Below are positions 5,509-54,326 of a stretch of 64,000 nt of DNA, piece after piece. The translations under genes were made by a program, and so were the position numbers. Below the pieces are notes generated by a model that was given only the letters and a program-made list of their open reading frames with translations, searched no databases and was not told the DNA's origin. Origin of the DNA: Nocardiopsis gilva YIM 90087 (GTDB taxonomy: Bacteria > Actinomycetota > Actinomycetes > Streptosporangiales > Streptosporangiaceae); NCBI RefSeq assembly GCF_002263495.1, contig NZ_CP022753.1, forward strand, positions 2,294,001-2,358,000. The letters run 5' to 3'. Numbering within the stretch: the first letter of the stretch is position 1; every line of letters begins with the position of its first letter.

Positions 5509-14877
<9,369 letters not shown>

Positions 14878-18249: not shown

Positions 18250-21200
18250 ATGACGAACGAGGACAAGCTCCGCGACGTGCTGAAGCAGGTCACCACCGAT
18301 CTGCGGCGGGTCCGCGAGCAGAACCGTCGTCTGCTGTACAAGGCGGGGGAGCCGGTGGCGGTGGTGGGTGTGGGGTGTCGTTTCCCGGGTGGTGTGACCT
18401 CGGCGGAGGGCCTGTGGGGTGTGGTGTCGGGGGGTGTGGACGCGGTCGGGGACTTTCCGGCCGATCGTGGCTGGGACCTGGAAGGACTCTTTAGCCAGGA
18501 CCCGGATTCGGCTGGGACCTCATACGTACGTGAGGGCGGCTTCGTTGAGAACGCCGGAGGCTTCGACGCGGGGTTCTTTGGAATCAGTCCGCGTGAGGCG
18601 GTGGCGATGGATCCGCAGCAGCGGTTGCTGTTGGAGACGTCGTGGGAGGCGGTGGAGAGCGGCGGGATCGACCCGCTGTCGTTGCGGGGGGCGGGGACGG
18701 GGGTGTTCGTGGGCGTCGTCGCCCAGGACTATGGCCCCCGGCTGCACGAAGCCGCTGACGGTGTGGACGCCCACCTGCTGACGGGCAACGCGGCGAGCGT
18801 CGCTGCCGGACGCGTCTCCTACATCTTCGGCTTTGAAGGCCCCGCCATGACTGTGGACACGGCGTGCTCGTCGTCGCTGGTGGCGCTGCATTTGGCGGTG
18901 CGGTCGCTGCGTGCGGGGGAGTGCTCGCTGGCGCTGGCCGGGGGCGCCACCGTCATGGCTGGTCCCGGTGCGTTCACCGCCTTCAGCCGTCAGCGGGGGT
19001 TGGCGCGTGATGGGCGGTGCAAGGCGTTCGCGGCCGCTGCGGATGGCACGGGGTGGGCGGAGGGTGCGGGCGTTCTGCTGCTGGAGCGGCTGTCCGATGC
19101 TCGGGCCAATGGGCGTCGGATCCTGGGCGTCGTGCGCGGTACCGCCATCAACCACGACGGCATCAGCAGCGGCCTGACCGTTCCCAACGGCACCTCCCAG
19201 CAGCGTGTGATCGGGCGTGCGCTGGCCGATGCGGGGTTGTCGGCCGGGGACGTCGATGCGGTTGAGGCGCATGGCACTGGCACGCGGTTGGGTGATCCGA
19301 TCGAGGCCAATGCGTTGCTGGCGACTTACGGCCGGGAGCACTCTGCCGACGGCCCGCTCTGGTTGGGGTCGTTGAAGTCGAATATCGGTCATGCGGTGGC
19401 AGCAGCGGGTGTCGGTGGTGTCATCAAGACGCTCATGGCATTGCGTCAGGGGGTGTTGCCGCCGACGCTGCACGTGGATGCGCCGACCCCGGAGGTGGAC
19501 TGGTCGTCCGGAGCGGTCCGGTTGCTGACCGAGGCCCGCGAGTGGCATCGAGAAGGACGCCCGCGCCGCGCCGGGGTCTCCTCCTTCGGCATGAGCGGCA
19601 CCAACGCCCACGTGATCCTGGAGGAGGCACCTGAGGAACCCGCCATCACACGGATCCCCACCTCCCGCCAGGCGGAATGGCCGAGCCACCCGGTCCTGCC
19701 CTGGGTGCTGTCCGCCCGCACTCCCGAAGCCCTCGGCAAGCAGGCCGAGCGGTTGCGCGACTTCGTTCCCCAGAACGCGGACATGGCGGATGTCGGGTGG
19801 TCGCTGGCAACAGGTCGGGCGCGCATGGAACACCGCGGCGTCGTGGTGGGTGCGGAACGTCAGGACTTCCTCCGCGGCCTCGACGCGTTGGCCCGCGGCG
19901 CAGACGACACCACGGTGATCCGCGGAGACGGCAACCACCGGCCCGGCCGACTCGCTGTGCTCTTCTCCGGTCAGGGGGCCCAGCGTGTGGGGATGGGGCG
20001 GGGGTTGTATCGGGCGTGGCCGGTGTTCGCGGAGGCGTTCGATGAGGTGTGTGCGGGGTTCGGGGGGCTGTTGGAGCGGCCACTGCATGAGGTGGTGTTC
20101 GCGGATGCGGGGTCGGCGGATGCGGAGCTGCTGGACCTGACCGAGTACACGCAGCCGGCGCTGTTCGCGGTGGAGACGGCTCTGTTCCGGTTGTTGGAGT
20201 CGTTCGGGGTACGGCCCGACCTCCTGCTCGGGCATTCGGTGGGGGAGTTGGCGGCGGTCCATGCGGCGGGTGGGGTGCCGCTGTCGGATGCGTGCGCGCT
20301 GGTGGCGGCGCGGGGCCGGTTGATGGGCCGTGTCGGGCACGGGGCGATGGTGGCGGTCGGCGCCCCAGAGGAGCAGGTGGCGGGGTCGTTGCCGGATGGG
20401 GTCGTGGTGGCGGCGGTGAACGGCCCGTCGTCAGTGGTGGTGTCCGGGGACGAGCGCGGCGTGGCCCAGGTCGAGGGGGAGTGGCGCGGTCGGGGGAAAC
20501 GGGTGCGCCGGCTGCGCGTGGGGTGCGGCTTCCATTCGCCGTGCGTGGACGGGGTGCTTGCAGAACTGGCTGAAGCCGCGGGGGCTGTGTCGTGGGGCGA
20601 CCTTGAGGTGGGTGTGGTGTCGGGGGTGTCGGGGCGGTTGTTGGGTGCGGGGGAGGTGGGTGATGCGGGGTATTGGGTGCGTCAGGCGCGGGATGCGGTG
20701 CGGTTCGGTGACGGTGTGGGGTGGCTGCTGGAGCAGGGCGTGTCCACTTTCATCGAACTCGGACCCGACGGATCACTCACGGCCATGGCGGCCGAATGCT
20801 CCGAGGCGCACCGCGAAAGAGACGGCGGAGAGAACGGCCGGGTCAGCCTGATTCCCTCGATGCGGCCCGGGCAAGCGGAGCCCGAGCGGTGGGTGCGGGC
20901 GTTGGCCGAGGTACATGCGTCGGGTGTGGATGTCGACTGGGCCCCGCTGTTCCCGGGGGCGCGGCGGACGGAGCTGCCGACCTACGCCTTCCAGCACCGC
21001 CACTACTGGCTCGACAGCGAAGAGACGCGTGTGGGGCACACGGTCAACGGAGCCACACCCGCCGATCACCCCTTCTTGAAAGCAGTGATTCCGCTCCCCG
21101 GGACCGACGGGACCCTCTTCACCGGCCGCATCTCCCTTCGCAGTCACCCCTGGCTCGCCGACCACGCCGTGGGCGGTACCGCCCTGCTGCCGGGCACCGC

Positions 21201-24200
21201 GATCGTCGGCCTCGCGCTCCACGCGGGCGACCACACCGGCGCACCGCACCTCGACGAACTCACCCTGCACGCCCCTCTGTCCATTCCCGCGGACGGGGCC
21301 ACCGCTGTTCAGGTCACCGTCGGTCCCGCTGACGATGACGATCGCCGACCCGTCACGGTCCACTCCCGCCCCGCGCGGGCATCCGGCGACACCGGCACCT
21401 CCTCGTGGACCCTGCACGCGGAAGGGACGCTGACCCGGCACACCACACCCGGGGCATCCGCCCCCAGCGCCTGGCCGCCGCCGAACGCCGAGTCCATCGA
21501 CATTGATGGAACCTACGAGCGGCTCGCGGGTCTCGGCTACGAGTACGGCCCGGCATTCCAGGGTCTGCAGGCGGTCTGGCGCGTCGGCGACGAAATCCTG
21601 GCCGAGGTGTGCCTCCCCACCGACCGCCACTCCGAGGCGATCCCCTTCGGCCTGCACCCCGCCCTCCTGGACGCCGCACAGCACGGCATCGCCATCGGCG
21701 ACGGCGCCATCCCAGATGAGGAGATCGCGCTCCCGTTCTCCTGGTCCGGTGTCACCCTGCACGCCGACGGCGCCACCGACCTGAGGGTGCGGCTGTCGCG
21801 CACCGGCCCGAGCACCTTCTCCCTCACCGCGACTGACCCTGCGGGCGCACCCGTCGTGACGATCGGCGCGCTGACGCTACGGCCGATGAACCCCAGCCGT
21901 GCCGCCACCACCGACGACCTCTTCATCCTCGACTGGGCGCCATTGCCGGACTCCCCAGCCACGCGCGAAACCGACAGGTGGGCCCTCCTCGACTCCAACG
22001 GGACCCTCGGATCAGTAGACCTCACCGTCACCACCCACCCGGACCTCGCATCCCTGCGTGCGTCGATCAGCGCGGGAGCCCCCGTCCCCCAGGCAGTGGT
22101 CTTACCCTGCCTCCCTGACCCGGACGGCCCGCATCACGTCGCCGACGAAGCGCGCACCGCCCTGCACGCGATGCTCGACCTGCTCCACGACTGGCTGGAC
22201 GACGATCGCCTGGAAAGTACGCAGCTGGTAGTCGTCACCAGCGGCGCGGTGGCGGCCCACGCCGACGACGACATCACCGACCTCGCCCACGCACCGCTGT
22301 GGGGGATGCTCCGCACCGCCCAGACCGAGCATCCTGGTCGGCTGGTCGCCATCGATGTCGACGACGTCGACGCCGCGCTGCCCCTTCTTCCGGACGCCGT
22401 CGCCAGCGGAGAACCGGGGATCGCCATTCGCGACGGTCACATGCTGGCCCCCCGCCTGGCCCGCCCCCCGGAGCCCAGGGGCACCTCGCTGCCCGCGCTA
22501 CCCGCCGATGGGACCGTTCTGATCACGGGCGCCACGGGAACGCTCGGTGGGGAGGTTGCCCGGCACCTGGTCACCTCCTACGGCGTTCGGCACCTGCTCC
22601 TGCTCGGCCGCAGTGGGGGCAGGAGCGCGGCAGCCGCCGAACTCGCCGCAGACCTGACAGAACTGGGCGCCGAGGTCTCGTTCGCGGCCTGCGATGCCGC
22701 CGACCTCCCGTCGGTCGAACGCGCGCTGGATGGCATCCCTGCAGAGCACCCGCTGTCCGCGGTCGTGCACATCGCCGGCGTCCTCGACGACGGCGTGCTC
22801 ACCTCGCTCACACCTGAGCGCATCGACCGGGTGATCCGCCCCAAGATCGACGCCGCATGGAACCTGCACAAACTCACCGGGGGCCACGACCTCTCGGCCT
22901 TCGTGATGTTCTCATCCGCTGCCGGACTCCTGGGTGCGCCCGGCCAGGCCAACTACGCTGCGGCCAACACCTTCCTGGACGCCCTCGCCCACCACCGTCG
23001 TGCGGCCGGCCTACCCGCGACCTCGCTGTCGTGGGGGCTGTGGGGTCAGCGCACCGGCATGACCGGACACCTCGACGCGACCGACCTGAACCGGATGACC
23101 CGCATGGGCATGGCCGCGCCCCTGGACACCGAGCAGGGCCTGGCGCACGTGGACACCGCTCTGCGCTCCGGCGTGCCGCACATGGTGCCGCTGCCCCTGG
23201 ACCTCCCCGGTGTGCGCGGACGTGCGTCTCGTGCGGGTGAGGTGCCTCCGCTGTTCCGCGGCCTTGTCCGCCCACCACGCCGTCGGGCTGCGGGGGCGGC
23301 GGGAACCGGCGAGGGAGCGTTGCGCGAGCAGGTCGCCGACCTGTCCGCGGACGCCGCCGAACAGATCCTTACCAATCTGGTACGGGCGCGGGCCGCCGAC
23401 GTCCTCGGCCACGCCGACGCCGACAAGATCGACCCCGAGCGCGAATTCCTGGAGGCGGGGTTCGACTCCCTCACCGCCGTCGAACTCCGCAACCAGCTCA
23501 ATGACGCCTCCGGTCTCCGCCTGCCCCCAGCACTGATCTTCACCTACCCGACGCCCCAGGACCTGGGCCGCCACCTGGCCGGAGAACTGACCCGCAACGG
23601 CCCCAGCGCAGAGGACGCTTCGATGGCGTCGCAACAGGACGAACCTGCGGACGCCGTCCTCCCTGACAGCCTCGTGACCCTGTTCCGCCAGACCTGCCAA
23701 CTGGGCCGCATCGACGACGGCATCCGGATGGTCGAGGCCGCCGCCCAGGTCCGGCCCACCTTCGGCCACGACGGCGACCCGGACGGCGTGCCCGCCCCGG
23801 TACGCCTGGCACAGGGTGATGCCCAACCAGCGCTGATGTGCTTCGCCTCGCTGGTGATGATCTCCGGCAGCCAGGAGTACGCGCGCTTCGCCGCCCCTCT
23901 GCGTGGGGCGCGCGACGTCACCGTCCTCCCCGAGCCCGGATTCCGGCCTGGCGAACGCCTGCCGGAGGACGCCGACGTCGCGATCGAGTCCCAAGTGCGC
24001 GCCGTCCTGAGCTGCATCGGTGAATCCGGGCAGCCGCCGTTCTGCTTGGTCGGCAGGTCATCGGGCGGCTGGATCGCCCACGCCGTCGCCGCCCGTCTGG
24101 AAGCGCGGGGCGTCTTCCCACACTCCGTCGTTCTGATCGACACCCCACTCCCGGATGCTTCGGCGACCCTCCCCGTCATCGAAACCGCGGTACTCCACCG

Positions 24201-24498
24201 CGAACAACAACTCGGGCTGATGGACACGGCCCGTGTCACCGCCATGGGCGGCTACCTGCGCATGTTCGCCGACTGGAAGCCCGAGCCCATCACGACCCCG
24301 ACCCTCCTCGTCCGCCCTGAGGGCCCGGTCACCGGCCCCTCGGGCGAACCCTTGGGCGGCCCCAACTGGCGCTTCGCCTGGCACCTCCCGCACACCGTGC
24401 TCGACGTCCCCGGCAACCACCTCACCATGATGGAAGAACACGCCGAGGCCACCGCCCGCGCGCTCGACGCCTGGCTTACCGAGTCGCGAGTGCGGTGA
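18250..24498 (+). CDS. Type I PKS module 3 (KS-AT-DH-KR-ACP) with terminal thioesterase
   Basis: ATG at 18250 is preferred: GGGGAGA lies upstream and the docking helix begins MTNEDKLRDVLKQ. An in-frame GTG at 18220 would add ten residues. The protein has 2082 residues. KS Cys206; AT with GHSVGE (Ser663) and GFHS (761-763), so malonyl-CoA; DH with His972 in HxxxGxxxxP and Asp1141; KR with HIAGVLDD (1512-1514, B-type) and Tyr1569; ACP Ser1740 in GFDSLTAVEL. The thioesterase has GRSSG (Ser1937), Asp1964 and His2057, a full triad, with Arg in place of the usual His before the Ser. No ER is present, so the final condensation should leave an alpha,beta double bond. Large blocks are near-identical to module 2. 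Confidence 0.95.
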   Translation: MTNEDKLRDVLKQVTTDLRRVREQNRRLLYKAGEPVAVVGVGCRFPGGVTSAEGLWGVVSGGVDAVGDFPADRGWDLEGLFSQDPDSAGTSYVREGGFVENAGGFDAGFFGISPREAVAMDPQQRLLLETSWEAVESGGIDPLSLRGAGTGVFVGVVAQDYGPRLHEAADGVDAHLLTGNAASVAAGRVSYIFGFEGPAMTVDTACSSSLVALHLAVRSLRAGECSLALAGGATVMAGPGAFTAFSRQRGLARDGRCKAFAAAADGTGWAEGAGVLLLERLSDARANGRRILGVVRGTAINHDGISSGLTVPNGTSQQRVIGRALADAGLSAGDVDAVEAHGTGTRLGDPIEANALLATYGREHSADGPLWLGSLKSNIGHAVAAAGVGGVIKTLMALRQGVLPPTLHVDAPTPEVDWSSGAVRLLTEAREWHREGRPRRAGVSSFGMSGTNAHVILEEAPEEPAITRIPTSRQAEWPSHPVLPWVLSARTPEALGKQAERLRDFVPQNADMADVGWSLATGRARMEHRGVVVGAERQDFLRGLDALARGADDTTVIRGDGNHRPGRLAVLFSGQGAQRVGMGRGLYRAWPVFAEAFDEVCAGFGGLLERPLHEVVFADAGSADAELLDLTEYTQPALFAVETALFRLLESFGVRPDLLLGHSVGELAAVHAAGGVPLSDACALVAARGRLMGRVGHGAMVAVGAPEEQVAGSLPDGVVVAAVNGPSSVVVSGDERGVAQVEGEWRGRGKRVRRLRVGCGFHSPCVDGVLAELAEAAGAVSWGDLEVGVVSGVSGRLLGAGEVGDAGYWVRQARDAVRFGDGVGWLLEQGVSTFIELGPDGSLTAMAAECSEAHRERDGGENGRVSLIPSMRPGQAEPERWVRALAEVHASGVDVDWAPLFPGARRTELPTYAFQHRHYWLDSEETRVGHTVNGATPADHPFLKAVIPLPGTDGTLFTGRISLRSHPWLADHAVGGTALLPGTAIVGLALHAGDHTGAPHLDELTLHAPLSIPADGATAVQVTVGPADDDDRRPVTVHSRPARASGDTGTSSWTLHAEGTLTRHTTPGASAPSAWPPPNAESIDIDGTYERLAGLGYEYGPAFQGLQAVWRVGDEILAEVCLPTDRHSEAIPFGLHPALLDAAQHGIAIGDGAIPDEEIALPFSWSGVTLHADGATDLRVRLSRTGPSTFSLTATDPAGAPVVTIGALTLRPMNPSRAATTDDLFILDWAPLPDSPATRETDRWALLDSNGTLGSVDLTVTTHPDLASLRASISAGAPVPQAVVLPCLPDPDGPHHVADEARTALHAMLDLLHDWLDDDRLESTQLVVVTSGAVAAHADDDITDLAHAPLWGMLRTAQTEHPGRLVAIDVDDVDAALPLLPDAVASGEPGIAIRDGHMLAPRLARPPEPRGTSLPALPADGTVLITGATGTLGGEVARHLVTSYGVRHLLLLGRSGGRSAAAAELAADLTELGAEVSFAACDAADLPSVERALDGIPAEHPLSAVVHIAGVLDDGVLTSLTPERIDRVIRPKIDAAWNLHKLTGGHDLSAFVMFSSAAGLLGAPGQANYAAANTFLDALAHHRRAAGLPATSLSWGLWGQRTGMTGHLDATDLNRMTRMGMAAPLDTEQGLAHVDTALRSGVPHMVPLPLDLPGVRGRASRAGEVPPLFRGLVRPPRRRAAGAAGTGEGALREQVADLSADAAEQILTNLVRARAADVLGHADADKIDPEREFLEAGFDSLTAVELRNQLNDASGLRLPPALIFTYPTPQDLGRHLAGELTRNGPSAEDASMASQQDEPADAVLPDSLVTLFRQTCQLGRIDDGIRMVEAAAQVRPTFGHDGDPDGVPAPVRLAQGDAQPALMCFASLVMISGSQEYARFAAPLRGARDVTVLPEPGFRPGERLPEDADVAIESQVRAVLSCIGESGQPPFCLVGRSSGGWIAHAVAARLEARGVFPHSVVLIDTPLPDASATLPVIETAVLHREQQLGLMDTARVTAMGGYLRMFADWKPEPITTPTLLVRPEGPVTGPSGEPLGGPNWRFAWHLPHTVLDVPGNHLTMMEEHAEATARALDAWLTESRVR

Positions 24499-49605: not shown

Positions 49606-50373
49606 ATGAGCGCCCACGCCGACCACGGCGGCTCGGCCCGCCGCACCCTGCACAACCGCGTTCTGGCGGAACTGGGCCCGGCGATCGCGGCCGGCGAGGT
49701 CGAGCCCGGCCACGTGTTCACGCTCGACCGCCTGGAGCGCGACTACGGGGTCTCGCGCACCGTGGCCCGCGAGGCGGTGCGGGTGCTGGAGTCCATGCGC
49801 CTGGTCGTCAGCCGTCCCCGCACCGGCGTCCGGGTCCGCCCGCAGGGGGAGTGGAGCGTCTACGACCCCCAGCTCATCCGGTGGCGGCTGGCCGGCCCCG
49901 GCCGCATGGCGCAGTTGCGGTCGCTGAACGAGCTGCGCGCCGCCGTCGAGCCTCCGGCCGCGGCCTCCGCCGCCCGCCGCGCCCGGCAGGAGGAGCGCGA
50001 CGCGCTGGTCGAGGTGAACCGGCGGATGGCCGAGGAGGGCGAGCGCGGCGACCTGGCGGCCTTCCTCGACCTGGACATCGAGTTCCACCGGCGCATCCTG
50101 CTGCTGTCCGGCAACGAGATGTTCGCGGGGCTCTCCGACGTCGTCGCCGAGGTGCTCACCGGCCGCACGGCCTACCAGCTGATGCCGCACCGGCCCCGAC
50201 CCCACGCGCTGCGCCTGCACGCCCACGTCGCCTCGGCGATCCACAGCGGCCTGCCCGAGGTCGCGGAGGCCGCCATGCGCGCCATCGTCACCGAGGTCGT
50301 GGCGGCCCTGGACGAGGCCGACACGGGTGCGGCGGGACCGGCGGACGCTCCAGGACTCACAGAACCAGGCTGA
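49606..50373 (+). CDS. GntR-family (FadR type) regulator of gluconate genes
   Basis: The protein has 255 residues. ATG 49606 follows GCGAGGAG; an upstream ATG at 49540 would place the operator inside the gene. A winged helix (LDRLERDYGVSRTVAREAVR, VLESMRLVVSRPRTGVRV) is followed by an FCD domain with DLDIEFHRRILLLSGNEMF and LHAHVASAIHSGLPEVAEAA metal and ligand residues. It is flanked by gntK and gntP and probably represses both, released by gluconate or its 6-phosphate. Its 3' end overlaps gntP by 17 bases. Confidence 0.92.
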   Translation: MSAHADHGGSARRTLHNRVLAELGPAIAAGEVEPGHVFTLDRLERDYGVSRTVAREAVRVLESMRLVVSRPRTGVRVRPQGEWSVYDPQLIRWRLAGPGRMAQLRSLNELRAAVEPPAAASAARRARQEERDALVEVNRRMAEEGERGDLAAFLDLDIEFHRRILLLSGNEMFAGLSDVVAEVLTGRTAYQLMPHRPRPHALRLHAHVASAIHSGLPEVAEAAMRAIVTEVVAALDEADTGAAGPADAPGLTEPG

Positions 50374-51730
50374 GCAGGAAGGCGAAGCCGAAGCCGATCA
50401 CGCCGATCAGCGTCTCCATCACCGTCCAGGTGCGCAGCGTGGTCCGCACGTCCATGCCGAGGAAGCGGCCGACCAGCCAGAACCCCGAGTCGTTGACGTG
50501 CGAGAGCACCGTGGAGCCGCAGGCGATCGCGATGACGATCAGCGACAGGTCGAGCGTGGACAGCCCGCTGGTCGCCGCGACCGTGGGCGCGATGAGCGCC
50601 GCCGTGGTGGTCAGCGCGACCGTGGCCGAGCCCTGGGCCACGCGCAGCGCCGTCGCGACGACGAACGCCGCCACGATGACCGGCAGGCCGGTGGACTCCA
50701 GGCTGTGCGCCAGGGCCTCCCCGATGCCGCCGGCCCGCAGCACGCCGCCGAACATGCCCCCGGCACCGGTGATCAGGATGATCGAGCACACCGGCCCCAG
50801 GGCCTCGTTGCTGATCTGCTCGATGCGCTGGCGCGGGTGCCGCCCGCGGCCGAGCACCACCATGGCCGTGATCGCGGTGATGAGCAGCGCGACGGGCGTC
50901 TGCCCGAGGAGGACCAGCACCCGCACCCACGCCGCGTCGCCATCGACGGCCCCGATGGTGGAGAGCGTGGTCAGGCCGGTGTTGCCGAAAATCAGCAGCA
51001 TCGGCAGCAGCAGGATTGCCAGGACGGTCGACAGGCGGGGCGGGTCGTCGTGGGCTGTGCCGTCGCCGAGGACGTCGTCGGGCACCGGGAGCTGCAACCG
51101 CCGCCCGGTGAACAGCGCGAACAGGTAGGAGGCCAGGTACCAGGTGGGAACGGCCAGCAGCAGCCCGACGACCAGCGTGGCGCCCATGTCGGCGCCGATG
51201 AGGCCGGTGGCGGCGACCGGCCCCGGGTGCGGTGGCACGAAGGCGTGCATGACGGCGAAGGCTCCCGCCACGGGCAGGGCGTAGAGCAGGACCGAGCCGC
51301 CCAGGCGGCGGGCGACGCTGAACACGATCGGCAGCATCACGATCAGCCCGGCGTCGAAGAAGATGGGGAAGCCGAAGAGCAGTGAGGCGACGCCGAGCGC
51401 CAGGGGTGCCCGCTGCTCACCGAAGGCCCTGATCAGCGTGTTCGCCAGGACCGCGGCACCCCCGGTGACCTCCATCAGGCGGCCGATCATCACGCCGAGC
51501 CCGACCAGCAGGGCGACACTGGCCAACGTGTCGCCGAACCCGTCGAGCATGGTCGGCACGATCTCGTCCGCGGGGATCCGGGTGGCCACCGCCACCAGCA
51601 GGCTGACCAGGGTCAGCGAGACGAAGGCGTGCAGGCGCACCTTCATCACCAGGAAGAGCAGGACGGCGACGGCGCCGACCGCTATGGCCAGCAGCGGCCC
51701 GGTGCCGTAGGCGGGTTCGATGGCTTCCAC
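50357..51730 (-). CDS. gntP: Gluconate:H+ symporter (GntP family)
   Basis: The protein has 457 residues with about 12-14 hydrophobic helices. GTG at 51730 is chosen for the GGGAGG just upstream. Family signs are LLFGFPIFFDAGLIVMLPIV, AFVPPHPGPVAATGLIGADM, ITGAGGMFGGVLRAGGIGEA, RVAQGSATVALTTTAALIAP and SHVNDSGFWLVGRFLGMDV. It imports gluconate for GntK. A palindromic operator lies about 110 bases upstream. Confidence 0.95.
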   Translation of the reverse strand: MEAIEPAYGTGPLLAIAVGAVAVLLFLVMKVRLHAFVSLTLVSLLVAVATRIPADEIVPTMLDGFGDTLASVALLVGLGVMIGRLMEVTGGAAVLANTLIRAFGEQRAPLALGVASLLFGFPIFFDAGLIVMLPIVFSVARRLGGSVLLYALPVAGAFAVMHAFVPPHPGPVAATGLIGADMGATLVVGLLLAVPTWYLASYLFALFTGRRLQLPVPDDVLGDGTAHDDPPRLSTVLAILLLPMLLIFGNTGLTTLSTIGAVDGDAAWVRVLVLLGQTPVALLITAITAMVVLGRGRHPRQRIEQISNEALGPVCSIILITGAGGMFGGVLRAGGIGEALAHSLESTGLPVIVAAFVVATALRVAQGSATVALTTTAALIAPTVAATSGLSTLDLSLIVIAIACGSTVLSHVNDSGFWLVGRFLGMDVRTTLRTWTVMETLIGVIGFGFAFLLSLVL

Positions 51731-51857: not shown

Positions 51858-52040
51858 TGAACCGCTGTGATCCGCCCCGTTCGGAATTGTTATCTCCTGT
51901 CCCGCCGCCGGTCGGCAGCGGACACGCCGGGTGGCCCGCCGTGTGCGCCCCGCTCGCGTCCCGCCGACCTTCCGACGATCGCGGTCCCCTCGTGCGAGGC
52001 GGACGGAAACCAGGGCTTGCACCGTGATCAGGGGGTACGG

Positions 52041-52150
52041 AGTTCGGTGTCTGCTGGGCGGCCTTGTCGGAGTTCTTCCTTTCCGATGTTCGGTGGTGAA
52101 AAGCGGCACCGACGAGGGCAGGGAGCTGGGGGCGCCGGTCGTCTGGCGGG
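52041..52150 (+). repeat. Repeat unit A, copy 1
   Basis: It contains GTCTGCTGGGCGGCCTTGTC at 52049-52068 and GAAAAGCGGCACCGA at 52098-52112. It begins TGATCAGGGGGTACGGAGTT, which is also mirrored at the outer end of copy 3. Confidence 0.8.
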
Positions 52151-52164
52151 TGCGGCCGGGCGGG

Positions 52165-52275
52165 GGCAGGGGTCTGCTGGGCGGCCTTGTCCGCGGTCGT
52201 CCTTTCCCATGTCCTTGGGCGAAAAGCGGCACCGACGCGGAGGCAGGGGTGGGCGTCGCCTGTCGGCTCCCGGAC
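52165..52275 (+). repeat. Repeat unit A, copy 2
   Basis: The same two cores lie at 52172-52191 and 52221-52235, 123 bases after copy 1 and in the same orientation. The right part (CCTGTCGGCTC...GACGGGCCC-like) also matches copy 3. Confidence 0.8.
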
Positions 52276-52351
52276 GGGCCCTGCGGGCGGCCCGGAACCC
52301 GCCTTGCGGCCCGCCGTGCGTCGGTTATGCCCGGATTGCCACAAGTTCCCC

Positions 52352-52415
52352 GCGATGATCATGGGGAATACTCCGGCAAAACGGACATCATCAGATGCAC
52401 CCCCATGATCATCGC
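52352..52415. repeat. Stem-loop with 15-base perfect arms
   Basis: GCGATGATCATGGGG pairs with CCCCATGATCATCGC across a 34-base loop. Adjacent CCCC and GGGGG could extend the stem past a short bulge. Confidence 0.75.
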
Positions 52416-52532
52416 CAGCGGGGGCCTGCGGCGGGGGGTGCTCCCGTATCGCGGAAGCGGCTTCACGTCCAGCGGAAACGCGGCCTTCCGGCCCGCCCCC
52501 ACTGCCGTTTCACCACCGCACCCACTCCTCTC

Positions 52533-52600
52533 TCCGTTGATCTCGGCGATATCGACCGAATACTCGCCGGTATTCGGTCGATATCGCCGAGATCAACGGA
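52533..52600. repeat. Stem-loop with 31-base perfect arms
   Basis: The left arm 52533-52563 begins TCCGTTGATCTCGGCGATAT and is perfectly complementary to 52570-52600, with a six-base TCGCCG loop. No base of the 31 is mismatched. The stem is far longer than a terminator needs and no T-run follows. Confidence 0.9.
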
Positions 52601-52649
52601 AGGACAGGACGGAGAGCGCTTTCCCGCTGCCCGACGCCGGTCCGGGCCC

Positions 52650-52770
52650 GTCCCGCCTGCGAGCCGACAGGGGCGCCCCAGCCCCCACCGCCCTCGGTGC
52701 CGCTTTTCACCCGAGAACGCCGGACAGGGCGACCGCCGACAAGGCCGCCCAGCAGACACCGGACTCCGCG
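52650..52770 (-). repeat. Repeat unit A, copy 3 (inverted)
   Basis: The reverse complements of the two cores are at 52738-52757 and 52694-52708. Its outer end mirrors that of copy 1, so the whole 52.03-52.78 kb block is bounded by inverted repeats. Confidence 0.8.
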
Positions 52771-53132
52771 CCCCGCTGATCACGGAAACCATCCGGCCGA
52801 CCGGCCGGAACCAGAGGAAGCGCGTGATCACCGGCGCCATGGGAGCAGGCGACTCCCTCTATGGGGCCCTCCGCCATGAGCAGGGCGGATGAGAACGAAC
52901 CGGAGAAGCCAGGCGACACCGCGGACCCCGGACTGTCACGATGAACTGGACAGCACAACCGGTTTGCAGATAAACCAGTCGGTAACATCGCCGGAACGTG
53001 TCGTCGGGTCGGTGGTGGTAGAGCAGGCACCACCCCGTCCTGTGGCGGTGCCGCTGCCGACGCGGCGATGACCCGTCCGCGAGACTGAGGGCTCCAGCGG
53101 TCCGACGAGGCGGGATGGGAAGAACAGAGCGG

Positions 53133-54326
53133 ATGCACAGGCTGACCAACCAAGTACGCCCGTACGCGTGGGGATCGACGGTCGCCATCCCACGCCTGCT
53201 CGGCCGCGAGCCCGACGGCCAACCGCAGGCCGAGCTGTGGCTCGGCGCCCACCACGGCGCCCCCAGCACCCTGCGCACCGCCAACGGCGACATCAGCTTC
53301 GACGAGCTCATCGCCTCCGCCCCGAAAGACGTTCTCGGCAAGCAGGCCGTCAGCCGGTTTGGTGAACGCCTGCCCTTCCTGCTGAAGGTGCTGGCCGCCG
53401 AGGAACCGCTCTCCCTCCAGGCCCACCCGGACGCCGCGCGCGCCCGCGCCGGGTTCGCGGCCGAGGAGGCCGCGGGCATTCCCCTCGACGCTCCGCACCG
53501 CAACTACCGGGACCCCCACCACAAGCCCGAACTCGTGCTGGCCCTGGAGCCGTTCGAGGCGCTGTGCGGCTTCCGCGACCCGGACGACGCCCGCGAGGAC
53601 CTCGACGGCCTCGTCAGCGAGCTGGCGGGCGCTCTGCGTGAGGACCTGTCCGCCCCCGACCCGCACCGCGCCCTGCGCGCCGCGCTGACGCGCGTCCTGA
53701 CCCTGCCCTGCGAGGAGCGGGAACGGCTCGTCGGCGGGTTCATCGCCGAGTGCGAGCAGCGCGCCGCCGCCGGTGTCGCGACCGGGCGGCACAGCGACAC
53801 CGTCATCGAACTCGCGCGGCGCTACCCCGGCGACCCCGGGGCGGTGGCCGCGCTGCTGCTCAACCGCATCACACTGCGTCCCGGCGAGGCCCTGTTCCTC
53901 CCGGCCGGCAACGTCCACGCCTACCTGCGCGGCACGGCCGTCGAGGTGATGGCCAGCTCGGACAACGTCCTGCGCGCCGGGCTTACCGGCAAGCACGTGG
54001 ACGTTCCGGAACTCCTGGAGGTCGTCGACTTCTCCGTCCTCCCCGTCCCCTACTCCCAGCCGGTCGCAGCGGACGGGCGGACCGAGTTCCGGCCGGGCGT
54101 GGGCGAGTTCGCCCTCGCCGTGCTCGGCCCCGGCAGCATCGACTCACGCCTCCCCGACGGCTCGCCCGCCGTCGTCCTCGCCCTCGACGGCGCCGCCGAA
54201 CTGCGCGCCGGGAACGGGTCCCGGCTCACCCTGGAGCGGGGCGAGTCGGTGTTCGTCCCTGCCGACTCCGGTGCCATCGCCGTCCAGGGCCGCGGTCACC
54301 TGGTCGCCGCCACGATCGGCGACTGA
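53133..54326 (+). CDS. manA: Mannose-6-phosphate isomerase, class I
   Basis: The protein has 397 residues. ATG 53133 (GGGAAG upstream) gives the family start MHRLTNQVRPYAWGSTVAIP; ATG 53115 is possible. Zinc ligands are in LSLQAHPDAARARAGF (Gln, His) and in YRDPHHKPELVLALEPFEAL (His, Glu). GEALFLPAGNVHAYLRGTAV carries the last His. It interconverts fructose-6-P and mannose-6-P for GDP-mannose and glycan synthesis. Confidence 0.95.
   Translation: MHRLTNQVRPYAWGSTVAIPRLLGREPDGQPQAELWLGAHHGAPSTLRTANGDISFDELIASAPKDVLGKQAVSRFGERLPFLLKVLAAEEPLSLQAHPDAARARAGFAAEEAAGIPLDAPHRNYRDPHHKPELVLALEPFEALCGFRDPDDAREDLDGLVSELAGALREDLSAPDPHRALRAALTRVLTLPCEERERLVGGFIAECEQRAAAGVATGRHSDTVIELARRYPGDPGAVAALLLNRITLRPGEALFLPAGNVHAYLRGTAVEVMASSDNVLRAGLTGKHVDVPELLEVVDFSVLPVPYSQPVAADGRTEFRPGVGEFALAVLGPGSIDSRLPDGSPAVVLALDGAAELRAGNGSRLTLERGESVFVPADSGAIAVQGRGHLVAATIGD

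Follow-up and report, generated by a model that had tools for sequence, protein, structure and literature searches.

Composite locus in Nocardiopsis gilva

The window analyzed here, a stretch of 64,000 nucleotides (nt) from the chromosome of Nocardiopsis gilva YIM 90087 (NZ_CP022753.1, positions 2,294,001 to 2,358,000), contains a noncoding block between two divergent genes, 50357-51730 on the minus strand and 53133-54326 on the plus strand, as predicted by a home-made codon-based gene caller. We take these neighbors to be of the gluconate permease type and the mannose-6-phosphate isomerase type. Elsewhere in the window, the caller predicts two very long genes, 5569-14877 and 18250-24498, with ∼3,100 and ∼2,080 codons.

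The block consists of a repeated unit, here termed U, and two palindromes, HP1 and HP2, located between the outer units (Table 1). An initial annotation of the sequence described three units of ∼110 bases, two direct and one inverted; their number, place, and orientation hold, but the conserved length is ∼95 nt. The direct copies share 83% identity over 72 nt at a spacing of 123, and the inverted copy forms arms of 133 nt with 74% complementarity or of 76 nt with 83%. Both stem-loops noted between the outer units are present, HP2 with a perfect stem of 15 bp (hairpin at 52352-52415) and HP1 with a perfect stem of 31 bp and a 6-nt loop (52533-52600). The outer ends had been described as mirroring each other from TGATCAG inward. 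Arms of 14 nt with 93% complementarity are indeed found there, but TGATCAG as the terminus of the element is rejected: conservation begins at about GGTCTGCTG, and TGATCA lies just outside U in only some of the other copies.

Table 1. Coordinates of the composite element and its parts in the window
Feature	Position	Strand	Basis or remark
Composite element, outermost U edge to outermost U edge	52049-52757		U profile matches; paralogue homology often ends nearby
U1, left end, reading inward	52049-52143	+	Profile match L032:2550-2644, E = 1.1e-22; alignment
U2, second unit at left	52172-52266	+	Profile match L032:2673-2767, E = 4.2e-18; alignment
U3, right end, reading inward	52664-52757	-	Profile match L032:3165-3258, E = 1.1e-21; alignment
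Palindrome HP2 (GATGATCATGGGG ... CCCATGATCATC)	52354-52413		Internally imperfect in the window copy
Palindrome HP1 (GTTGATCTCGG ... CCGAGATCAAC)	52536-52597		Stem perfect in the window copy
Left outer TGATCA arm	52022-52035		Not general in the U family
Right outer TGATCA arm	52772-52785		Not general in the U family
Stretch without alignment to the G001 ortholog, larger than the element	51895-52925		L032 versus L122

The U unit and its distribution

Alignment of the copies defines U as ∼95 conserved nt composed of core 1 (GTCTGCTGGGCGGCCTTGTC), a spacer of ∼32 nt whose length varies by a few nucleotides, core 2 (GAAAAGCGGCACCGA), and a G-rich tail. The unit starts with GTCTGCTG and lacks a GTAG tag. 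Conservation is far higher in both cores than in the remainder of U. Protein coding was considered and rejected: some copies have an open frame on the reverse complement, but one-base length differences within U disrupt it from copy to copy.

The host genome, a single contig of 6.14 Mb, contains dozens of partial copies of the block; among the 40 host loci examined, 28 are composites and 12 carry the 62-nt HP1 on its own. With up to two mismatches allowed, 66 U cores are counted in the host, with ∼30 composites besides the solo hairpins, compared to 4 cores for the reversed pattern serving as the control. The corresponding counts are 30 and 6 in the congeneric genome G001, 78 and 5 in Murinocardiopsis flavida DSM 45312 (G008, Nocardiopsidaceae), 27 and 6 in G023, and 211 and 4 in G324. 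Loci of G008 of ∼3 kb show 100% identity to contigs named as M. flavida. A single occurrence with no structural conservation in relatives, named in the initial annotation as the finding that would speak against an element, is not what the search for the cores reveals: the block has many copies in the host, and four other family genomes contain 27 to 211 cores each.

The distribution is patchy. Of 341 genomes of the family, 7 give a match to the U profile, among them G323 and G106 with one match each, that in G106 being weak; of 394 genomes in a class-wide sample, 1 does so, namely, the host. Both screens used stricter filters, which lose weak matches. Three pattern matches in Pseudomonas, Clostridiales, and Deltaproteobacteria MAGs look like chance and are weak against the U profile (E values of 0.04 for L113 and 0.005 for L119, with L115 not among the matches listed). 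Plasmid and phage collections give no match to the host sequence, one of these plasmid/phage searches using two U units only.

On the host chromosome, 1 of 35 loci lies outside 1.39 to 5.9 Mb, in the 26% of the chromosome that includes dnaA at 0.40 Mb (P = 0.0003, with the limits set post hoc after the data had been viewed). This count omits six single matches with two mismatches, and their inclusion gives 4 of 41 (P = 0.007). Origin depletion as a general rule is rejected, as G001 has copies near its dnaA.

Architecture of the composites

Clusters with U units in both orientations show a single geometry. All 50 such clusters in the host, G001, and G324 are directed inward, none outward, and none mixed, and their layout is always (U+)n ... 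(U-)m. They make up 21 of 30 clusters in the host, 10 of 13 in G001, and 19 of 21 in G324, the other 14 having a single orientation; the 21 clusters of G324 are a sample, taken from 20 stretches that were selected from a subset of its 211 cores. Our own count from the core list of M. flavida gives 11 inward and 0 outward neighbors. Most composite ends in the host are single U units, those in G324 are tandem arrays with n and m of up to 5 and a period of ∼138 nt, and G001 has one array of four U- units. At least one right arm in the host, that of L025, is degenerate. An additional sequence of ∼22 nt (GCCGTGTTTAAGAACGCCG), a cap just outside one terminal U array, produces an asymmetric end at some G324 loci (e.g., L164, L168, L170, L172, L174, L178, and L181).

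The composites of the host lie between called genes, and no gene is called inside any of the 28. Near-full-length dispersed copies are found: L166 and L167 of G324 share 93.5% identity over 1,351 nt, the window copy and L060 share 84.7% over 705 nt, and L026 and L044 share 83.9% over 651 nt, a match bounded by U edges on both sides. Among paralogue matches of at least 300 nt, 111 of 328 ends in the host fall no more than 10 nt from the terminal U edge, 180 are internal, and 37 lie further out, 6 of these by more than 20 nt. The values for G001 are 25 of 72 ends at the U edge and 2 of 72 outside, and those for G324 are 240 of 2,336 at the edge and 426 of 2,336 outside; the extra cap that is common to several G324 ends may account for this.

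The check for target duplications proposed in the initial annotation detects none: outside the U edges, direct repeats show no excess in three genomes at offsets of -4 to 12 and lengths of 4, 6, and 8, a range that a duplication of 2 to 3 nt would escape.

Palindromes between the arms

The hairpin sequences between the U arms differ by genus. The host genus (N. gilva and G001) carries HP1 and HP2, which start with GTTGATC and GATGATC, respectively. G324 contains hairpins of the ATCG(C/T)GAACTTATGG... and CGAGTCTGTC... types, and M. flavida contains those of the CTGATCTTGACAAAACCG... type. Across the 40 host loci, HP1 measures 62 nt in 28 of 31 pattern matches, and HP2 measures 60 nt in 20 of 25. 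HP1-like palindromes without a U match are found in G009, a member of another genus (L073, L076, and L079), which indicates that the hairpin and U modules are distributed separately.

Covariation in HP1 was determined with all 40 distinct 62-nt sequences from the host and G001, excluding 61-nt variants. The 28 stem pairs are intact in 92.5% of cells, compared to 79.4% in shuffles, and 17 of them are changed on both sides, with a covariation score of 0.365 versus 0.128 (0 of 500 shuffles). The signal collapses on sliding the partner, a control that takes relatedness into account, unlike the shuffle control, which ignores it. The outer 11 bp are nearly invariant.

These properties bear on a structured noncoding RNA locus, in which a transcript of the element would fold through its hairpins and inverted arms into a functional RNA. 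The single strand of the window block has a far stronger fold than shuffled sequences (z = -12.6; none of 20 equal), and this as well as the covariation of HP1 and the fixed lengths of the hairpins agree with such a locus. Strong as the HP1 covariation is, however, a perfect palindrome covaries equally as DNA, so that DNA and RNA are not distinguished by it. The calculation for U yields no RNA consensus fold (5 pairs, -3.1 kcal/mol); U is conserved at the sequence level and not as an RNA structure. Within one element, the two arms show a similarity of 0.803, versus 0.780 between elements (7 of 2,000 permutations as high), and the own partner arm ranks first in 6 of 20 elements. This small excess implies that the elements do not strictly maintain a long arm-arm stem, and a long U-U' stem is weak as a conserved entity, with own arms barely more alike than foreign arms. 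The Rfam search gives no family above the gathering score, its subthreshold matches being mostly those of microRNA models to the perfect hairpin. A functional RNA is considered very improbable.

The solo copies of HP1 show a distinct position relative to genes. All 12 in the host have at least one adjoining gene whose stop codon is 6 to 43 nt away, and 7 of the 12 lie between convergent genes (e.g., L022:1617-1678, L034:1509-1570, and L055:1506-1567). A T-run after the hairpin is found in none of these 12 copies. Because of the proximity of the stop codons, the solo hairpins may plausibly act as dispersed bidirectional terminators.

Genic context and turnover of sites

Host composites are found in convergent gaps in 13 cases, in tandem gaps in 12, and in divergent gaps in 3 of 28, compared to 17, 67, and 29 of 113 background gene pairs from the host loci and the window. 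Convergent gaps are thus enriched (13/28 versus 17/113; P = 0.001). Divergent gaps are avoided when the host, G001, and G324 are pooled (5/60 versus 29/113; P = 0.008), with a background from the host only and with two G324 clusters excluded that have no called gene on one side.

Orthologous sites in G001 were located via joined gene slices, for which 22 of the 28 host composite loci were entered and 20 were obtained. A two-sided alignment is found at 19 of these 20, and 18 of the 19 sites lack a profile-detectable U in G001, which bears out the empty sites sought for the element, with diverged junctions. L026 is the single site whose ortholog (L140) keeps one U, with 74.8% identity over 103 nt; L045 aligns on one side only and has no U in G001. 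The reverse comparison, for which 13 G001 loci were entered, gives 9 loci, 8 of them two-sided, with 6 of these 8 lacking U in the host and 2 containing it. The absence of U at 18 of 19 and 6 of 8 sites in the other congener points to a fast turnover of copies. At the window locus, homology with G001 ends at 51894 and restarts at 52926, with 56 nt between these points in G001. On visual inspection, the site in G001 that corresponds to L060 has a remnant resembling core 1, and the one that corresponds to L052 has a solo HP1-type hairpin; an empty site in this sense is one without a profile-detectable U and not a pristine one. The junctions are not base precise because the intergenic flanks have diverged.

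The context of the copies is also what a cis element serving the host would show. U would here bind a chromosomal protein (a nucleoid, gyrase, termination, or partition factor), inward pairs around a hairpin would delimit transcription units or loops, and sites would turn over by recombination and local duplication. The strong conservation of two cores relative to the rest of U makes this a serious rival, and the variable spacer, the identical geometry in several genera despite differing hairpins, the enrichment in convergent gaps, and the placement of all 12 solo hairpins close to stop codons agree with it. It fits poorly, however, with sites that are mostly unshared between two congeneric genomes, with the low identity of the one orthologous U retained (L026/L140), and with presence in just 7 of 341 family genomes. 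On this evidence, a cis element is unlikely.

Search for a transposase and comparison with known systems

The host genome contains two matches to the Y1 transposase family (PF01797), L081 at 1.82 Mb and L082 at 2.12 Mb, each adjoining a TnpB-like open reading frame. Both have an IS605-type arrangement, in which the Y1 transposase gene is paired with a divergent neighbor that is TnpB-like as judged from its translation. Seven Y1 matches in four genomes have no U in the surrounding ∼3 kb, G023 carries U and yields no Y1 match, and no transposase gene bounded by U is present among the examined loci. A RAYT or IS200 enzyme as the mover is rejected, given that the two host Y1 genes adjoin TnpB-like frames and have no U nearby.

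REPINs and BIMEs are doublets of REP sequences moved by REP-associated tyrosine transposases (RAYTs), as outlined in PMC3116915 and PMC2817692. As far as these accounts go, the U composites resemble them as noncoding inverted doublets around hairpin-forming DNA that are intergenic and dispersed, with lone units that are probably remnants and with compensatory stem changes. The feature of inverted doublets in intergenic DNA is present, as seen in the 50 inward clusters, and the missing target duplication also agrees with REP proper. In contrast to REPINs and BIMEs as described there, U is ∼95 nt long, nonpalindromic, without GTAG, and tandem reiterable and has no linked RAYT. Both the short GTAG-tagged palindromic unit and a RAYT flanked by the repeat are absent. 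The strict REP assignment raised in the initial annotation fails on these two points, and together with the TnpB-like neighbors of the host Y1 genes and the case of G023, they leave movement of a true REP by a RAYT the least credible of the explanations considered.

The composites combine features of other element types. The terminal inverted repeats without coding sequence typical of MITEs are present, as are empty sites in a relative, but the target-site duplication that marks DDE-type MITEs is not seen. The long inverted ends of tandem subunits typical of foldback elements are present in G324. Pneumococcal BOX elements are modular intergenic repeats in which one module varies in number; their modules differ from U, and the composites here have inward inverted ends. 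TIR families and TIRtrons are likewise moderately abundant long inverted repeats unrelated to REPs, but according to the available account, they flank a tyrosine transposase gene (PMC3733652), and none is found with U. The BrickBuilt MITE of Porphyromonas gingivalis is similar in being intergenic and nonautonomous, with tandem units and inverted ends; as portrayed in PMC4596501, its small inverted ends enclose a 23-nt minisatellite, whereas here ∼95-nt units form the inward end arrays. The Drosophila elements Foldback and Galileo share long, internally repetitive inverted ends; Galileo, as characterized in PMC3573991, is eukaryotic and encodes a P-element-type transposase, in contrast to the lack of a coding element among the loci here. 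A description of the U repeat family was not found in a literature search, with subscription journals mostly beyond its reach.

Proposed interpretation

The best-supported reading of the U family is that of a new family of nonautonomous composite repeats with inward end modules. The window block is one copy of this dispersed noncoding composite, which is probably a nonautonomous mobile element of a foldback- or REPIN-like kind that is spreading or has recently spread. Of the mobile element or REP/BIME composite suggested in the initial annotation, the nonautonomous or BIME-like nature is supported by the copies, the inward U units, the empty sites, and the lack of a gene, and REP proper is not supported.

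Paired or tandem inward U units of ∼95 nt form both ends, with two fixed-length palindromes between them. In the proposed mechanism, an enzyme encoded elsewhere would recognize the inverted U units as ends, so that U would be a putative recognition site. Copies would be inserted into intergenic DNA without target duplication and may survive best downstream of genes. The hairpins would act as DNA structures or as bidirectional terminators. Movement of the U elements, the mobilizing enzyme, and any transcript are all putative, and from the compared sites, we infer that insertion, rather than repeated loss, probably lies behind the site differences.

Mobility is supported by the excess of cores in the host (66 versus 4), the inward orientation in 50 of 50 clusters, and the sites without U in the other congener (18/19 and 6/8), as well as by the near-full-length dispersed copies, the match ends at the U edge (111/328), the tandem arrays of G324, and the avoidance of divergent gaps. 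Several points weigh against it. The sites compared are all between species, and lineage loss could look identical, with at least one U-like remnant in G001. The 180 of 328 internal ends in the host and the 426 of 2,336 outside ends in G324 are what mosaics would give. Neither a target duplication nor a candidate enzyme was found in the searches described above, and the junctions lack base precision. Core conservation far above that of the rest of U is also explicable by a selected host function.

A more far-reaching proposal, advanced tentatively and with more doubt than confidence, is a new prokaryotic class of foldback-like mobile DNA, defined by inward tandem ends of ∼95-nt nonpalindromic units, two exchangeable fixed-length palindromes, the lack of target duplication, and an enzyme other than Y1/RAYT.

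To our knowledge, small dispersed repeats outside the proteobacteria are poorly explained. Across genera, the U family retains its end unit and the inward arrangement of that unit but exchanges its hairpins; a genome may hold as many as 211 U cores, and no RAYT is linked to them. What moves or keeps the U elements is directly testable in a named, culturable organism, Murinocardiopsis flavida.
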